Virus record (IMG/VR): IMGVR_UViG_3300030118_002181
Span: 1-22,145 of that record
Reading direction: 5' to 3' (one strand)
DNA: 22,145 bases
Source of the DNA: a virus
Below are positions 3,299-11,746 of this stretch, piece after piece; position 1 is the first letter of the stretch; every line of letters starts with the position of its first letter. The notes under the pieces were generated by a model, which made no database searches, was not told where the DNA came from, and saw nothing but the letters and a program-made list of their open reading frames with translations. The position numbers and the translations under genes were made by a program.

Positions 3299-3700
3299 TT
3301 ATTTATCCATTAAGTCAATAAATTCTTTATATCTATTTATTAACGAAATCAGATCATCATTTGATAACTTTACAGATTGTTTACTTTCCTGCAACAATTC
3401 TTGGGCTATATCGTAGCCATATTCTTTGTTTAAATTTAGAGCAAATTGGTATTGCATACCTTGATTACCTACATTACAGGAGTAGCATTGAGGTTTAGCA
3501 TTTGTTTCTTTCCACCTAGTTATATAATGCCTTCTTGATATAAAATGGCCACATTGCATATAATCTTTATAATGTCTTTTAGTGTTACAAGTATAACATT
3601 TAACATTACCATATTTATCTGCTGATTTTAACCTAATATATAAAGAGAATAAGGTATCTAATTTTTTTACTAGATATTTTCTACTAGGTTTTTTAGGCAT
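3299..3700 (-). CDS. ninG: NinG/Rap-like recombination nuclease
   Basis: A 133-aa protein of the lambda NinG (Rap) type, a zinc-containing HNH-related nuclease that acts on branched recombination intermediates. The Cys/His set is visible: CYTC at residues 35-38, QCGHFISRR at 49-57 (C50, H52), and QCYSCN at 71-76 (C72, C75). Between them, HYITRWKETNAKPQ matches the family's spacing. The protein is shorter than lambda NinG (about 200 aa), mainly at the N-terminus. Its ATG overlaps the preceding stop by 1 nt (TAATG), and a strong terminator follows. With the annealing-type protein, SSB and ATPase nearby, it would process joint molecules formed in phage recombination. Confidence 0.8.
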   Translation of the reverse strand: MPKKPSRKYLVKKLDTLFSLYIRLKSADKYGNVKCYTCNTKRHYKDYMQCGHFISRRHYITRWKETNAKPQCYSCNVGNQGMQYQFALNLNKEYGYDIAQELLQESKQSVKLSNDDLISLINRYKEFIDLMDK

Positions 3701-3980: not shown

Positions 3981-4026
3981 AAAGAAAAGAAAAAAGAAAA
4001 AGGACAAAAAGAAAAAAGAAAAGAAA
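3981..4026. repeat. Homopurine mirror repeat (21-nt arms)
   Basis: On the plus strand the left arm (3981-4001) reads A3 G A4 G A6 G A5, and the right arm (4006-4026) reads A5 G A6 G A4 G A3, separated by GGAC. The two arms are perfect mirror images of 21 nt. This is the sequence type that can form an intramolecular triplex (H-DNA) under negative supercoiling, and its A-tracts may also bend the DNA. It lies immediately upstream of the candidate promoter at 3948-3975. No gene covers it. Confidence 0.85.
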
Positions 4027-4028
4027 AA

Positions 4029-4136
4029 TCCCCCCCAAAAAAAAGAAACAATATTATTTACAAGATCCAACAGGAGTGATTACCTGAAGTTTAGCAACTT
4101 GACTAGATTTGCGACTAGGCTGACAAATATATATAA
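4029..4136. other. Non-coding gap: C7A8 run and a higher-G+C island
   Basis: Part of the only long gap between genes other than the fibre flank (3937-4136, 200 nt). It begins with a run of seven C (4030-4036) and eight A (4037-4044), next to the mirror repeat. From about 4060 to 4125 the G+C content is clearly higher than in the surroundings and includes two copies of GACTAG 12 nt apart (4101-4106 and 4113-4118). On the minus strand an open frame without a start codon (stop at 4058-4060) reads ICQPSRKSSQVAKLQVIT and on. It has no start of its own, but could be reached by a -1 shift from the 40-aa gene at 4137-4259. No tRNA or clear hairpin is visible. Confidence 0.6.
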
Positions 4137-4259: not shown

Positions 4260-4260
4260 A

Positions 4261-4386
4261 TTATCTTCCTTGACCTCTATAAGGTTTTTTATATTGTTTA
4301 GATGTTTTTAATCTACTTGCATTTTTACTATGAGGATGTGATTTTCTTTTTCTCTTTCTGTATGTAGATATAATCTTTCTTGGCAT
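4261..4386 (-). CDS. Small very basic protein (41 aa)
   Basis: A 41-aa protein rich in Lys and Arg (TYRKRKRKSHPHSKNASRLK), ending KPYRGQGR. The C-terminal pattern of SKxYxKxYRGQGR recurs, from memory, in small proteins next to holin genes in Bacteroidota phages. The charge suggests binding to nucleic acid or membrane phosphate, and the function is unknown. Its ATG overlaps the holin stop by 1 nt (TAATG), and the next gene starts 1 nt after its stop, so it is translated as part of the lysis group. Confidence 0.6.
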   Translation of the reverse strand: MPRKIISTYRKRKRKSHPHSKNASRLKTSKQYKKPYRGQGR

Positions 4387-4784
4387 TATCTTTTTCTGAT
4401 CTTCTCAAATGATCTTCCTCCAAAGTATGCACCTAGAGTTACAGTAAGAGATGTAGTAAGTAAAGCTTGATTACTTTGGCTTATTTCAAATTCAATCCAT
4501 CCTGCATCTATAAAAACCATAAGCACACTTGAAACTACAAGAAATATTAATACCATAGGCCTTACATTTTTACTTAACCAACTATCACTATTAGCATCTG
4601 CCTCCCATCTTGCAGTAACATTTTTCTGCATCTCTGATTCTGCTGATATGAATACTTCAGTCATTTCTTTTTCAAATCTAGCTTGATCCTCTTTACTAAA
4701 AGTATGTTTAGCAACTATGTTACTAATTTTCTCAGCTATACCTCCACCTGCTGCTCCGAATATTTTAGCTAATATTTGTTTCAT
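4386..4784 (-). CDS. Holin (three-TM, GTA-release type)
   Basis: A 132-aa protein matching the three-TM holin family also used in gene transfer agent release. The diagnostic stretch RWEADANSDSWLSKNVRP (residues 59-76) precedes the two strong membrane segments (about 76-92 and 107-122). An N-terminal amphipathic helix with a Gly-rich AAGGG turn (residues 11-15) could form the third. A Glu/Lys-rich linker fills residues 30-55. It would form holes in the inner membrane at the end of infection to release the M15 peptidase encoded three genes upstream. It starts in an ATGA overlap with the preceding 44-aa gene. Confidence 0.85.
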   Translation of the reverse strand: MKQILAKIFGAAGGGIAEKISNIVAKHTFSKEDQARFEKEMTEVFISAESEMQKNVTARWEADANSDSWLSKNVRPMVLIFLVVSSVLMVFIDAGWIEFEISQSNQALLTTSLTVTLGAYFGGRSFEKIRKR

Positions 4785-5827: not shown

Positions 5828-8800
5828 TTAATTACATTTACATTCTTTTTTTAAAGTATCTACTTCTTTTTTAAGTTCTTGTATTGACTTAACTAATAAA
5901 GGAACTATTTTAGAATAATCTACTCCTTGCATATCTTCTGCATCTTTTTCTCCTGTAACTGCTTGAGGTAAAACTTCTTCTAATTCGTGAGCCATCACTC
6001 CATAACCTCTGTTATCATCTACTTTCCATTTGAAATCATATACAGGGATTTTAGAAACCATATCTAATCCTGCAAAGTCTTTCAAATCTTCTTTTAGCCT
6101 ATAATCTGATGAAGTGTTATAAGCAGTTGAGGATGAATTAATTGAAATTGAACCAACTTCAGTAGCCTGTGAATGAAATATACTGGCCTTAGTTCCTGAA
6201 TTTCCTGATGTATCATTAAAACCATAACCCCTGCCTCCATTTGTTTGTAGGCTCAATTGTGCTGCACCTATATTACCTAGTGCAGTTCCAAGAAATAATC
6301 TACCATCATTTGAAATTCTCATTCTCTCACTTAGAGAAACCTCAGTATTTGTAGTTGTAGTTGCAGATGTAGATGTATTTTTAAATTTAAAATCTCCTCC
6401 TGCCATAACAAGAGCTGATGATTTATTAGCATAGGTATCTTGACTTGATAAATATTTATTATTTGTATCATTGCTTGGTTTTACTCCTTGTCCTAAAACT
6501 AACCCTGCACTTGAATATTGAATACCTATAGTAACTTGTGATTCATCACTTGCATAATTATCTCCTAAGATAGTATATCCATTAAGTTGATTACTTTTTG
6601 CTTTTATTATAGGAGTTAAAGGTGCAGTATTTGCAAAAGTTGAGCTTCCTGAAAAAGTACCACTACCTGCAATTATACCTTTTGTACCTGTGCTTAAACT
6701 TCCATTACCATCTCCTGAATTAATGTTAAGATTTCCACTAGCTGCATTAATAGTCCAACTTCTAGTTCCTGATTGATCAAAACCTAATCTTGCACCATTA
6801 GCTATATTTACACCTGCATCTCCTGTGGAATTTACATTTGAAGTGGTACTAAAACCACCTGCTGAGGCACTAATTTGCCCTCCAAAAGTTGCACTAGATT
6901 CTTGTATTGTAAAAGCATTAGTCAGATTACCACTTGTATTATTTACAAAAAATTGTAATTTAGAATTATGGGCATTACTGCTATCATCTACAACACTTCT
7001 TATAGTTGATTTTATTGCATAAGTGCTTCCAAAACCACTTGTATTAGTAGAGTGTAAACGTAAATCACAGGCTTGACCACTTCCTGTAAGCGACTTAAAT
7101 GTATGGCCACTACTATCTATTCTGTACTTTTCTGTTGGATCAGCACCATTACTTGTTTTAAATATGAGAGCCATATTATTATTGCCATCTGCATTTTGTC
7201 CTTCTATAATACAAGAACGAGTTGTATAAGAACTTGCTGTTGGTGCAAAATATATTCTATTGTGAGCACCAGCTCCACCTGCTGCATTTCTTAAAAGTAA
7301 ACTTCCACCCTGTGCACCTGAATTAGATTTATTTACTGTAGTTAAATCAGTAGAAGAAATTGTTCCTGCAAAAGTTGCATTTGAATTTGAAGATTCAATT
7401 TGTAGAGCAGTTGCACCTGTTCCGTAATTGAATAAGAAAAAGTCATCAGTTGAATTACCTCTTAATCCGTGAAACCATTTTATTGTTCCAGCAGTATGAT
7501 ATTCAAGAACTGCACCACTTGTATCATTTCCTCTGTCTACAATAAATTCTCCACTTCCTGATGCATCTATTTTTATTGTTCCCCCTGTTGAGGTTACATC
7601 TCCAGTAAAAGTTGCATTTCCATTTTTATTTATTGTAAACCTAGTTGTATTTGTATCTTGTACTCTAAATAAAGTATCTCCATCTGCATCTAAACCAGTT
7701 ATATTCATTCTTAATCCACTACCAGCATTAGAAGAATTTGCTTGTATAATAGGTGCTGCATTATCTATATTTATATTACCAGTAAATAAATTAGGACTAG
7801 AACCATTTTGGTCAATAAATCCTGATAAAGTTACATCTCCTGCAAAGGTTGCATTTTGTGATTTATCTAGTGTAAGAGCTGTTGTTAAAGCTTCGCCACC
7901 ATCAGCAACTGTATAAAATATCATTTTACTAGGTGCATCATTATTAGCTACAGCTTGACCATCTGCTACTACAGCTATTGCACCCATTTGTGCAAAATCA
8001 GTTCCATCAAATCCTTGAAATCTTATTAATCCACCTTGACCATTTGGTAAGGCTACTGTTGGTGCTGAAGCATCTCTTGACCTTAATGATAACAAATTAG
8101 CTGTTCCATCTCTCCTGCCTTCAATAATAACAGAGCCACCCTCTCCTGTACCACTACCCCCATCAGGATTGCTTGTATCTATAAATTGTGCTGATGTGCC
8201 AATTATACTACCTGCAAAAGTTGCATTTCCAGAGCCATCAATACTTGCTTTTTCTGTTCCGTTATTTCTAAACTTGTAAGTTAAACCATCAGGGCTATTA
8301 AAATTAACAGCACCACCATCCATACCAATAACAAGTTTTTGTGTGTTAGCACTTCGTTCAATAATTAAACCTGCATCAAAACCTGAGTCATCTGATTGTT
8401 TTATTGATATTTCTTTAGATGCTATTGAACCACCAAAAGTTGCACCTGAATCTACCTGAAATATACCACCACCACTTGAGTTTTCTGATAATCTTAAATT
8501 TTCTCCACTACCATATATATCCCATTGAGCAGTTCCACTACCTGCATATAATCTAACATAATCTCCACTTGATGAACTTGTTGATATAAACTTTTTAGAA
8601 GTTGCAGTTACATCTCCTGCAAAAGTTGCATCCTTATAAAGATTTATTGTATCAGAACCATCCTCTGTAAACCTCATAAACTCAGCACCACCTACAAAAA
8701 ATCTTAACCTATCATCAATATCTTCACTTATATATGTATGGCTACCACCACCAAAATATAATTTTTGAGCTGAAGCAATACTTATATCTCCACTTGCAGT

Positions 8801-11746
8801 AATATTCCCTGCTGTTAAACCATCAATTATTAAACTTGCTGCTGTATATCCTGTACCTGATAAATTCACAGTAGTTGTTGGCTCGGTTGTAAGTCCTTTA
8901 AATAATCTATATACTTCTGTACCACTTGAAGCATCCATAAATAATCCTGTATATCTATCTGTACCATCATTATACCTACCATAGAAACCAATATCTACTG
9001 AATTAGCTGAATTGTCTTTTGCCATAGATATAAGAGGATCTTCTACTGCTAGTGTAGATGTATTTACAGTTGTAGTTGTACCATTGACTGTTAAATCTTG
9101 TGCTATTGTTAAGCTACCTGCTAAACTAACATCTTGCGAACTATCAATAGATATTGCATTTGTTCCTGCACTTCTGATATATACATTGTCTGCTCCACTA
9201 TCTATTGAGCCAATATATATAGCGTCATTGTTATCTATACCTATTAATCTAATACTTCCCCCGCCTGTCGTTTTACTTTCATAATATGAATTATTATTTG
9301 TAATTGTATCGCCTGTTAATACTATATTACCTGTAACACTAACTCCTGAACTTGTAGTTGCAAATTTATTTGAACCTGCAAAATTTAATTCAACAGAATT
9401 TATAGCATTCATATTTGCTAATATATTTCCACTACCATCTTTAAATACTATATCATTATCTCCAATAATATGTAAATCTCCTGTACCAGTATCTTCTATT
9501 ACAGATTTAGTACCATCGTGATAAATTTGCAAGTCATTAGAAGCACCTGCCATAAATTTACCTGTATCACTTCCAACCCTAATATTACCACCTGTAGCTA
9601 CAATAGTATTAGATGTATCTAAAGTTCCTGTTACAACAACACCACCTGCTGTGGTTTCAAACCTTTTGCTACCATTGTGATAGAGTTCAACTGCACTATC
9701 CTCTGTGAATTTAGCCATCGTTTCACTTGCTGATGCATTAAATATTTCAACTTTGCTTGATAATATTCTTAAATCTCCTGTGCCTATATCTTGTATAAAA
9801 CTATGACTTCCATTGTGAAATATTTGTAGGTCTGAACCTGCACCAAAAATTGCTTTTACATTATCTCCAAAAAAATTAGACTTACTTGTTATTATAGATT
9901 CTGTGCTTCCTGATATTTTAAAATATTCAGTAGTACCTCCTGAACCATCGTCTGACCTTAATATAATATCTCCATCATCTACTTGTTGCTCAATGGTTAA
10001 ATTACCTGTACCATTTTTAATATGCGAGTTCGTTCCATCGTGAAGCATATAAAGGTCAGTAGAATTACCAACACCTAAAAATTTACCATCTATTGCTCTA
10101 GTATGTTGACTAAATTCATTTAAAACTAAACTACCACTGAGTTTAAAATATTCAGTCGTGCCTCCAGCACCATCATCAGTTTGAAACGAAACATTTCCAT
10201 CAGTTGCATTGTTATAAATAAACATATTGCCACTGTCTGTGAATATATTAAAATCGCCTGTTTGATTTTGAATATTTGAGTTTGTACCATCGTGAAATAT
10301 GCCTAAATCTCCACTAGCACCTGCTTTAAAAGCGACACCATCAATAGTTCTGATTTCTCTACTTGCAACAGTTCTAACATCTCCACCATCAAATCTTAAA
10401 AATTCTGTCGTTCCACCTGCACCATTATCTGTAAAGAATGCAATATCTTTATCATCTGAGAAATTTGTAATATAAAAATGTCCATTATTGATTTCTATAT
10501 AATTATTTGTTCCATTATGGAAAATTTGTAAATCCTCGCCAGTACCCAGTTTTATTCTAGAACTATCAGGAAACAATAAATTTGATGTAAATGTACTTTC
10601 TCCTGTTGCTCTTAAAGTACCTGATATGTCAATTTTATATGCAGGACTTTGGGTGCCTATGCCTAGACCTGTGTTTGTAAGTCGCATTCTTTCAGCACCA
10701 TTAGTTCCAAAATTTATTGCATTTGATGCAGTCCTATATATACCTGTATCCGTGTCGCCACTAAAAGTAATACTAGGACTACTTTCACTACCATCGCCAA
10801 CTGCTACATTGCCTGTAACCGTTACTCCTGTGCTAGTTGTTTCAAACTTTTTAGAACCATCATAATATAAACTTACCTCTGCATCAGATATACCTTGCAT
10901 TATAAATTCTCCACCATCTCCTTTTAATAATTGAAAATTAGTAGATTGTATTATTAAATTACCAGTTCCTGTTTCGTTTATTCTTGAATTTGAACCATCG
11001 TGAAAAATTTGTAAATCGTTACCTGCACCAAATCTAGCTTTAGCATTATCTGCAAAATCTACATCACTACTAAATGTAGCACCTGTAAATACTGAGCCAC
11101 CAGTTGCAGTAATTCCACCTGTAACAGTTACACCACCACTTGTTGTTTCAAACTTCTTACTATCATTAAAGTATAACTCTACCTTATCTCCACCATAAAA
11201 AGCAGCCATAGTTCTATCAGATGTATCTTTTATAACTATATTATTATTACCTTTTAAAAGTCCATTAACTTGTAAATTGCCACTTATTGTAACATTATTA
11301 GGAAGGCCTATTTGTAATTGCTGACTACCTGCTGAGGTTTCTATTTCGTTAGCAGTACCTACTACTGCAAATACTTGGCTATCTAAATCTACTGATCCTG
11401 TACCACTATCTCCACTAAAATCTAAATCTTCTAAAGTAATTTGTGCTGCTACATAAGTTGCAACTGCTGCTGAAGTAGGTATAGTTGTATCATTATTGTT
11501 TGATCCTATACCATCTGCTGCATCCACAAATTTAGATATAGTAATGTTTTCCCCTGTATCTTTTAAGCTACCAAACTCTAATATGTTAGTTACTTTTAGA
11601 TCTCCTGCATTGTTTATATGAATACCTGTAGCATTACCTGATCCATCAGATAACTCTTTAAGAGAAGAGCTGATTACTGCATTATCAAGAGTTTTGATAA
11701 GGCCTACATAAGTATTACTGATTTTAGTGTTTAATAAACTTGCCAT
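5828..11746 (-). CDS. Giant tail fibre/spike with C-terminal S74 self-cleaving chaperone
   Basis: A 1,972-aa host-recognition fibre. The last roughly 94 residues form an S74 intramolecular chaperone: SSDYRLKE at 1879-1886 holds the Ser1880/Lys1885 pair (same 5-residue spacing as in endosialidase), followed by GYGVMAHELEEVLPQAV and a coiled coil ending ECKCN. This domain helps the trimer fold and then cuts itself off. Upstream, six NDLQIFHDG-type repeats start near residues 249, 411, 486, 570, 645 and 745, alternating with KFETT-type segments. The motif NGTTTTVNTSTLAVEDP near residue 890 is common in marine phage fibres, and several NATFAG repeats follow up to about 1450. The middle of the gene is richer in CpG and poorer in GATC than its neighbours, which suggests exchange of the receptor-binding part. 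Confidence 0.9.
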   Translation of the reverse strand: MASLLNTKISNTYVGLIKTLDNAVISSSLKELSDGSGNATGIHINNAGDLKVTNILEFGSLKDTGENITISKFVDAADGIGSNNNDTTIPTSAAVATYVAAQITLEDLDFSGDSGTGSVDLDSQVFAVVGTANEIETSAGSQQLQIGLPNNVTISGNLQVNGLLKGNNNIVIKDTSDRTMAAFYGGDKVELYFNDSKKFETTSGGVTVTGGITATGGSVFTGATFSSDVDFADNAKARFGAGNDLQIFHDGSNSRINETGTGNLIIQSTNFQLLKGDGGEFIMQGISDAEVSLYYDGSKKFETTSTGVTVTGNVAVGDGSESSPSITFSGDTDTGIYRTASNAINFGTNGAERMRLTNTGLGIGTQSPAYKIDISGTLRATGESTFTSNLLFPDSSRIKLGTGEDLQIFHNGTNNYIEINNGHFYITNFSDDKDIAFFTDNGAGGTTEFLRFDGGDVRTVASREIRTIDGVAFKAGASGDLGIFHDGTNSNIQNQTGDFNIFTDSGNMFIYNNATDGNVSFQTDDGAGGTTEYFKLSGSLVLNEFSQHTRAIDGKFLGVGNSTDLYMLHDGTNSHIKNGTGNLTIEQQVDDGDIILRSDDGSGGTTEYFKISGSTESIITSKSNFFGDNVKAIFGAGSDLQIFHNGSHSFIQDIGTGDLRILSSKVEIFNASASETMAKFTEDSAVELYHNGSKRFETTAGGVVVTGTLDTSNTIVATGGNIRVGSDTGKFMAGASNDLQIYHDGTKSVIEDTGTGDLHIIGDNDIVFKDGSGNILANMNAINSVELNFAGSNKFATTSSGVSVTGNIVLTGDTITNNNSYYESKTTGGGSIRLIGIDNNDAIYIGSIDSGADNVYIRSAGTNAISIDSSQDVSLAGSLTIAQDLTVNGTTTTVNTSTLAVEDPLISMAKDNSANSVDIGFYGRYNDGTDRYTGLFMDASSGTEVYRLFKGLTTEPTTTVNLSGTGYTAASLIIDGLTAGNITASGDISIASAQKLYFGGGSHTYISEDIDDRLRFFVGGAEFMRFTEDGSDTINLYKDATFAGDVTATSKKFISTSSSSGDYVRLYAGSGTAQWDIYGSGENLRLSENSSGGGIFQVDSGATFGGSIASKEISIKQSDDSGFDAGLIIERSANTQKLVIGMDGGAVNFNSPDGLTYKFRNNGTEKASIDGSGNATFAGSIIGTSAQFIDTSNPDGGSGTGEGGSVIIEGRRDGTANLLSLRSRDASAPTVALPNGQGGLIRFQGFDGTDFAQMGAIAVVADGQAVANNDAPSKMIFYTVADGGEALTTALTLDKSQNATFAGDVTLSGFIDQNGSSPNLFTGNINIDNAAPIIQANSSNAGSGLRMNITGLDADGDTLFRVQDTNTTRFTINKNGNATFTGDVTSTGGTIKIDASGSGEFIVDRGNDTSGAVLEYHTAGTIKWFHGLRGNSTDDFFLFNYGTGATALQIESSNSNATFAGTISSTDLTTVNKSNSGAQGGSLLLRNAAGGAGAHNRIYFAPTASSYTTRSCIIEGQNADGNNNMALIFKTSNGADPTEKYRIDSSGHTFKSLTGSGQACDLRLHSTNTSGFGSTYAIKSTIRSVVDDSSNAHNSKLQFFVNNTSGNLTNAFTIQESSATFGGQISASAGGFSTTSNVNSTGDAGVNIANGARLGFDQSGTRSWTINAASGNLNINSGDGNGSLSTGTKGIIAGSGTFSGSSTFANTAPLTPIIKAKSNQLNGYTILGDNYASDESQVTIGIQYSSAGLVLGQGVKPSNDTNNKYLSSQDTYANKSSALVMAGGDFKFKNTSTSATTTTNTEVSLSERMRISNDGRLFLGTALGNIGAAQLSLQTNGGRGYGFNDTSGNSGTKASIFHSQATEVGSISINSSSTAYNTSSDYRLKEDLKDFAGLDMVSKIPVYDFKWKVDDNRGYGVMAHELEEVLPQAVTGEKDAEDMQGVDYSKIVPLLVKSIQELKKEVDTLKKECKCN

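Follow-up and report, generated by a model that had tools for sequence, protein, structure and literature searches.

A mirror repeat whose arms covary among uncultured phages, joined to a conserved structured block: a candidate for selected three-stranded pairing

A long-standing question is whether natural triplex DNA or RNA-DNA triplexes are selected for function, or whether they arise as by-products of repeats and are tolerated. It is raised again by a mirror repeat at positions 3981 to 4026 of the 22,145-nt stretch of viral DNA analyzed here (IMG/VR record IMGVR_UViG_3300030118_002181), referred to below as the window. An exact letter check agrees with the initial annotation that two perfect 21-nt mirror arms surround GGAC, with the left arm, AAAGAAAAGAAAAAAGAAAAA, at positions 3981-4001 and the right arm, AAAAAGAAAAAAGAAAAGAAA, at positions 4006-4026 of the plus strand. 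The term homopurine, under which the repeat was described, holds for the arms and fails across the center because of the C in the spacer. Since the flanking genes are both on the minus strand, the pyrimidine strand is the biologically relevant reading, and on this probably transcribed strand the tract consists of the 5′ arm Y1 (4006..4026), the spacer or loop GTCC (4002..4005), and the 3′ arm Y2 (3981..4001). No other mirror repeat with arms of ≥12 nt (gap of ≤10 nt) occurs in the window. H-DNA is by definition a homopurine-homopyrimidine mirror repeat (PMC4666352, PMC9171763, PMC13125764), and the tract, with its 4-nt spacer, fits this sequence definition. No Watson-Crick fold was found for the arms in the window (RNA fold of 0 kcal/mol on either strand), and neither a second copy of an arm 14-mer nor an arm-complementary tract of ≥14 nt is present elsewhere in the window.

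The symmetry goes beyond what A-richness requires, as had been proposed. When the whole window was dinucleotide-shuffled 100 times, the longest mirror arm averaged 9.9 nt and did not exceed 14 nt, and when the 51-nt tract itself was shuffled (5,000 mononucleotide and 5,000 dinucleotide shuffles), an arm of 21 nt was never reached (maxima of 17 and 20 nt, respectively). The inner 18-mer TCTTTTTRYYCTTTTTCT provides a further control. Among its 91 occurrences not flagged as belonging to the family, 90 reach mirror arms of only 7 to 12 nt, and the remaining one (L419), with an arm of 19 nt, is by eye a family member. The flagged family members with this 18-mer mostly have mirror arms of 19 to 21 nt; a C-to-T change in one arm shortens the mirror arm of L354 to 11 nt, and L358, with an arm of 9 nt, looks like a false flag. 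Two 59.7-kb viral contigs (L368 and L377) carry five copies each of the 18-mer, none of which extends into a long mirror. In the 1.62 Mb of fetched DNA, all nonperiodic mirrors of ≥16 nt are of this element type. A pattern scan of bacterial and archaeal genomes returned nine chance-like matches, none with a mirror, and when the gap and the structured blocks of both subfamilies were compared with cultured phage DNA, no meaningful match and no mirror turned up.

The repeat lies between a gene for a NinG-like recombination endonuclease downstream (3299..3700, minus strand; PHROG 5034, E value of 3.5e-22) and a holin gene upstream (4386..4784, minus strand; PHROG 3427, E value of 8.4e-21). All window genes with assigned functions are on the minus strand, in the order capsid, portal, endolysin, holin, and then NinG and further small genes; no tRNA gene was found in the window. 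A small basic protein ending in GQG[KR] is encoded at about 4260-4386 (minus strand) and is located between the holin and the element in many relatives. Elsewhere on the minus strand, positions 490-969 encode a protein with weak, below-cutoff similarity to sigma-70 region 2, a possible phage sigma factor, and positions 5828-11746 encode a 1,972-amino-acid tail-fiber-like protein of repeated modules, whose C terminus resembles, by eye, a self-cleaving chaperone domain of the S74 type. For the capsid, a distant relationship (31%) was found with Nonlabens phages P12024L/S and a weaker one with Bacteroides phages, and this kinship makes Bacteroidota the likely host of this uncultured virus family.

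Relatives of the locus were collected by NinG- and holin-based searches of viral contigs and by pattern scans for the structured block described below. NinG is downstream in 138 of 140 elements, and the holin is upstream in 138 of 140. In the loci fetched by the structured-block pattern, the corresponding counts are 81/83 and 82/83, with the exceptions located near contig ends. One relative, L009 (32.4 kb, IMG/VR class linear), has its recognizable genes on one strand and carries the element between holin and NinG, followed downstream by ERF, an AAA ATPase, a 5′-3′ exonuclease, a protein weakly matching DnaA-C, and terminase; the subset of its open reading frames searched included no recognizable DNA polymerase or primase. 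The large terminase gene is located about 7 kb from the element in this genome, and no evidence was found for the packaging-related signal suggested earlier. An origin-associated role, also suggested, is not supported in the form proposed, as GC skew has no inflection marking an origin, a result that neither proves nor excludes one.

On the sense strand, the relatives share a common layout consisting of the TATATTTG box, the structured block, the segment TTGGWWCnnGTAA, a T-tract with a G-motif, the left pyrimidine arm, a spacer of 4 to 6 nt, and the right pyrimidine arm. The arms are T-runs split by single C residues. The lengths of these runs, read from the inner to the outer end, vary among relatives (e.g., 5-6-4, 5-5-3, 6-6-4, 3-6-4, 3-5-3, 4-3-4, and 5-3-4), and the opposite arm has the same lengths, mirrored. 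Nearly all of 87 distinct homologous elements have inner T-runs of equal length in the two arms, and all three inner T-runs are equal in 67 of 70 elements. Fully symmetric pairs account for 16 of the 19 distinct arm pairs, compared with a mean of 0.9 and a maximum of 8 in 100,000 re-pairings, with the scoring taking the best mirror center and so being mildly biased toward symmetry. In the three asymmetric pairs (L174, L330, and L231), the difference is confined to the third, outermost run, with an additional C-to-G substitution in L231. When changes were counted on a tree of the flanks, the left runs, the right runs, and the joint pattern each changed 35 times. The count itself is rough because the flanks in the tree are short, and cassette exchange would inflate it (about 15 changes can be taken as a firm minimum), but the coincidence of the three counts is not rough. 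Intermediates with unequal run lengths hardly occur, a surprise if the arms change one after the other.

When only T and non-T were distinguished, 51 distinct arm pairs were mirror-exact, the longest being those of L235 and L284 (27 to 29 nt), although their interrupting bases differ between the arms. The interruption pairs among these T-exact mirrors include C/G, G/G, A/A, A/C, and A/G, and most of the mismatched ones are C/G, a combination compatible with a G.G-C triad. Substitutions at C positions are sometimes tolerated, whereas shifts in inner run length are essentially absent. In some relatives (L089 and L284, with A in L284), G or A occupies mirrored positions of the two arms; such pairs restore no canonical triad, and so part of the identity symmetry is left unexplained. 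Judged from these sequence comparisons, the mirror is kept by covariation of both arms; that is, its symmetry is conserved through changes of pattern. Homologous loci with simple A/G tracts lacking mirror symmetry would have spoken against the initial annotation, and the relatives keep the symmetry through changes in both arms, which lends strong support to its idea of a triplex-forming mirror.

The mirror also varies in its center and in the number of its arms. The spacers of the relatives are either of 4 nt (ACTC, GAGC, GTTG, and others) or of 6 nt in the form G-NNTA-C. In a second subfamily, a third arm, Y0, partly mirrors the next arm around GTAGG-type centers, with a mean Y0/Y1 mirror of 7.4 nt against a maximum of 6.9 nt in 20,000 re-pairings. 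Its counterpart in the window is the T-tract and G-run TTTCTTTTTTTTGGGGGGG (4030..4048, minus strand), where the Y0/Y1 mirror is weak. In L226, L218, L101, L085, L314, and others, a third pyrimidine arm upstream of a GTAGG, GCTGGC, or ACTAGG center partly mirrors the next arm and so gives a three-arm zigzag. The mirror is centered on GGGGG instead in L043, L171, and L184, and it is degraded or absent in a few relatives (L220, L267, L294, L302, and L315).

The initial annotation recognized the repeat and missed the larger conserved element to which it belongs. The mirror tract is the tail of a composite of about 150 nt on the minus strand, made up of a box, a pseudoknot, a hairpin, a T/G tract, and the pyrimidine mirror. 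The TATATTTG box (4131-4124, minus strand), a putative promoter of the element, immediately precedes the structured block in nearly all relatives; on the minus strand of the window, the mirror lies about 100 nt downstream of it. It matches the Bacteroidota −7 consensus TAnnTTTG, and the promoter call is weak because no −33-type box was identified. The CAAAA box previously put forward as a promoter candidate on the plus strand is on the nontranscribed side, with no excess of promoter-like sites, and is not retained.

For the structured block, the aligned sequences of 24 relatives support an H-type pseudoknot of two 4-bp stems and a hairpin. In stem S1 (4103..4118, minus strand), CTAG at 4118-4115 pairs with CTAG at 4106-4103; 96.8% of the cells are paired, and three of the four pairs show changes on both sides. 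In the pseudoknot stem (4094..4112, minus strand), GCAA at 4112-4109 pairs with TTGC at 4097-4094; all cells (100%) are paired, two of the four pairs show compensatory changes, and the variants are GCAA/TTGC, GCAG/CTGC, GCAC/GTGC, GAAC/GTTC, and GTAA/TTAC. In hairpin P3 (4071..4086, minus strand), CAGG at 4086-4083 pairs with CCTG at 4074-4071, with 96.9% of the cells paired and both-side changes in all four pairs; in the second subfamily, this hairpin occurs in nine 4-bp combinations, all of them Watson-Crick. It is followed by the conserved segment TTGGATCTTGTAAA (4057..4070, minus strand), which reads TTGGWWCnnGTAA in relatives. Overall, 97.9% of the cells of the structured block are paired and 9 of 12 pairs have changes on both sides; cells changed on both sides number 48, compared with 11.4 in shuffles, and slid controls show 25 to 60% pairing. 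Compensatory base-pair changes, the test of a structured RNA, are thus present in the upstream block. GU pairs are nearly absent from its helices (2 of 286 cells) despite the 48 compensatory cells, which would be unusual for an RNA family, and the structure may instead act as single-stranded DNA. Local minimum-energy folding scored the block no better than shuffles (z score of −0.35), as the pseudoknot is outside that model, and the case for the structure rests on covariation. The covariance models of Rfam 15 gave no match for the element. A structured core of the form ACTT-stem-TTGGWWCnnGTAA also occurs in other viral contigs, some of them large, where its neighbors vary and no mirror accompanies it (L165, L173, L183, L191, L195, L199, L202-L207, L246, L277, and L289), lying near tRNAs in L289. 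The occurrence of a similar block without the mirror in other phages indicates that the composite is modular.

The covariation of the mirror, together with the lack of Watson-Crick pairing between the arms, can be explained by Hoogsteen pairing in a Y.R.Y triplex, and the tract is probably under selection for such three-stranded pairing. T-rich arms with isolated, nonadjacent C residues and a loop of 4 to 6 nt are suited to a Y.R.Y triplex near neutral pH. The tolerance of C-to-G changes and the near-lack of run-length asymmetry fit a pairing in which register matters most. Somewhat less firmly, we favor the reading that the tract forms the 3′ portion of a conserved phage composite element kept by selection for this pairing. 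The polypurine strand of one arm would be sandwiched between two pyrimidine strands in T.A.T and isolated C.G.C triads, with a loop of 4 to 6 nt and with the 5′ arm perhaps serving as the Hoogsteen strand. More speculatively, the TATATTTG box may drive transcription of the element, and the mirror may influence how its own template is transcribed or replicated. H-y DNA could arise from the negative supercoiling that trails RNA polymerase, and its orphan purine strand would be captured by the nascent pyrimidine transcript; alternatively, the two arms of the transcript could clamp the template. By arresting transcription, a persistent RNA-DNA structure of this kind would mark the boundary between late and early regions, and it might also serve as a primer for replication. 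The sense strand is invariably the pyrimidine strand, which agrees with the involvement of a transcript, but shared descent explains the orientation too. The participation of RNA together with the template is tentative, as is the function, and the position of the element suggests either a boundary (arrest or insulation) between the lysis and NinG operons or a replication primer.

A triplex of DNA only, in which an H-y5 structure extruded under negative supercoiling would act as a supercoil sink, a replication pause or origin, or a boundary, is a possibility that we take seriously without expecting it to be correct; the upstream pseudoknot would then be single-stranded DNA or unrelated. The tract fits the H-DNA definition (PMC4666352, PMC9171763), GU pairs are nearly absent upstream, and C/G interruptions in arms of the common three-run type mostly have their G in the 5′ arm, as expected if the 5′ half is the third strand, a bias that is weak since it comes from about three lineages and L235 goes the other way. 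H-y5 was also the prevalent isomer in a mouse survey (PMC9171763). However, the constant sense orientation of the pyrimidine strand and the TATATTTG box ahead of the block in nearly all relatives hint at RNA, a hint softened by shared descent, which also accounts for both, and GC skew has no inflection. The same skew result counts against an R-loop replication origin, in which the leader and G-run would anchor the transcript, the mirror would lock it on the template, and DNA synthesis would be primed. This seems unlikely, although recombination and replication genes lie downstream (ERF, AAA, 5′-3′ exonuclease, and a DnaA-like HTH), the search of L009 recognized no phage DNA polymerase or primase in the subset of open reading frames covered, and the structured block is followed by G5-7 in many members, because in the second subfamily GTAGG replaces the G-run.

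The remaining readings are less probable still. ENE (MALAT1-type) triple helices use two U-rich arms with isolated C residues, and the transcript of the element, which has such arms, might wrap an A/G-rich strand of another RNA or a tail, protecting the RNA or capturing a target. We regard this as improbable because no matching A/G strand (no arm 14-mer) is present in the window outside the locus, the arm sequences vary among relatives so that a separate partner would have to covary, and the isolated C residues would mismatch a plain poly(A) tail. It is quite improbable that the tract is a protein-binding or promoter A-tract (an UP element, an intrinsic terminator, or a site for a pyrimidine-binding protein) with incidental symmetry. 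The tract is U-rich and adjoins promoter-like boxes, but dimeric proteins select inverted or direct repeats rather than mirror repeats, the run lengths change freely provided that both arms change together, and no intrinsic terminator (a GC-containing stem followed by a U-run) was found at the mirror site. The protein-dimer, UP-element, and terminator readings were set aside since none predicts mirror covariation; the UP-element or A-tract role proposed in the initial annotation does not need it. A low-complexity A/G tract made by chance or slippage, without selected symmetry, is conceivable in a T-rich genome, where homopolymer tracts slip easily. This reading was rejected as extremely improbable in view of the shuffles, the nonfamily 18-mer control, and the symmetry kept through many pattern changes.

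With three-stranded pairing as the preferred reading, evolution would have run the symmetric double-mutant experiment many times, as the arms change together in dozens of related phages. The element is a small, defined candidate for a natural triplex, coupled to a new, unclassified structured element. The structured leader and mirror-symmetric arms (three in one subfamily) could constitute a new class of phage control element, forming a transcript-template triplex at its own locus (RNA.DNA-RNA, or H-DNA plus a hybrid) and setting the late/early boundary or priming replication, a suggestion that we advance with less than even confidence. If it is true, the element would be a natural triplex whose pairing register shows as covariation.

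Several known systems resemble the element in part. ColE1 RNA II and mitochondrial CSB II combine a structured transcript, a G-run, and then a tract that could stay hybridized to the template. The phage element is like these R-loop primers in its structured block, G-run, and tract; unlike in them, the G-run is not conserved and the hybrid strand would be pyrimidine RNA, and the likeness carries no demonstrated sequence relation. ENE/MALAT1-type RNA triple helices likewise have two U-rich arms with C interruptions, but the phage arms are 4 to 6 nt apart rather than separated by a stem, and no A-rich partner was found in the window. Triplex potential in prokaryotic DNA is shared with the bacterial intrastrand triplex motifs (ITxF), in which a single strand contains purine as well as pyrimidine segments and folds on itself (PMC4666352). 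Membership in this group was rejected, as the phage arms are all pyrimidine on one strand and the RNA fold is 0 kcal/mol. Nonlabens phages P12024L/S, which are cultured and distantly related in capsid (31%) and holin (about 36 to 37%), have a similar gene order of lysis followed by ERF/SSB, but DNA searches detected neither the structured block nor the mirror in records of cultured phages. In the open-access literature searched, no comparable phage family came to light, which is not proof of its absence. The closest likeness is to H-DNA motifs, with which the element shares a homopurine-homopyrimidine mirror repeat, a short central loop, and T-rich arms with isolated C residues. H-DNA motifs are mostly simple eukaryotic repeats and are reported to be few in prokaryotes (PMC4666352), whereas the phage element, known here from its sequence, is syntenic, covarying, and joined to a structured block. 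The element fits the sequence definition of an H-DNA motif and would appear to work like one, and there is a real chance that it represents a new class of element.
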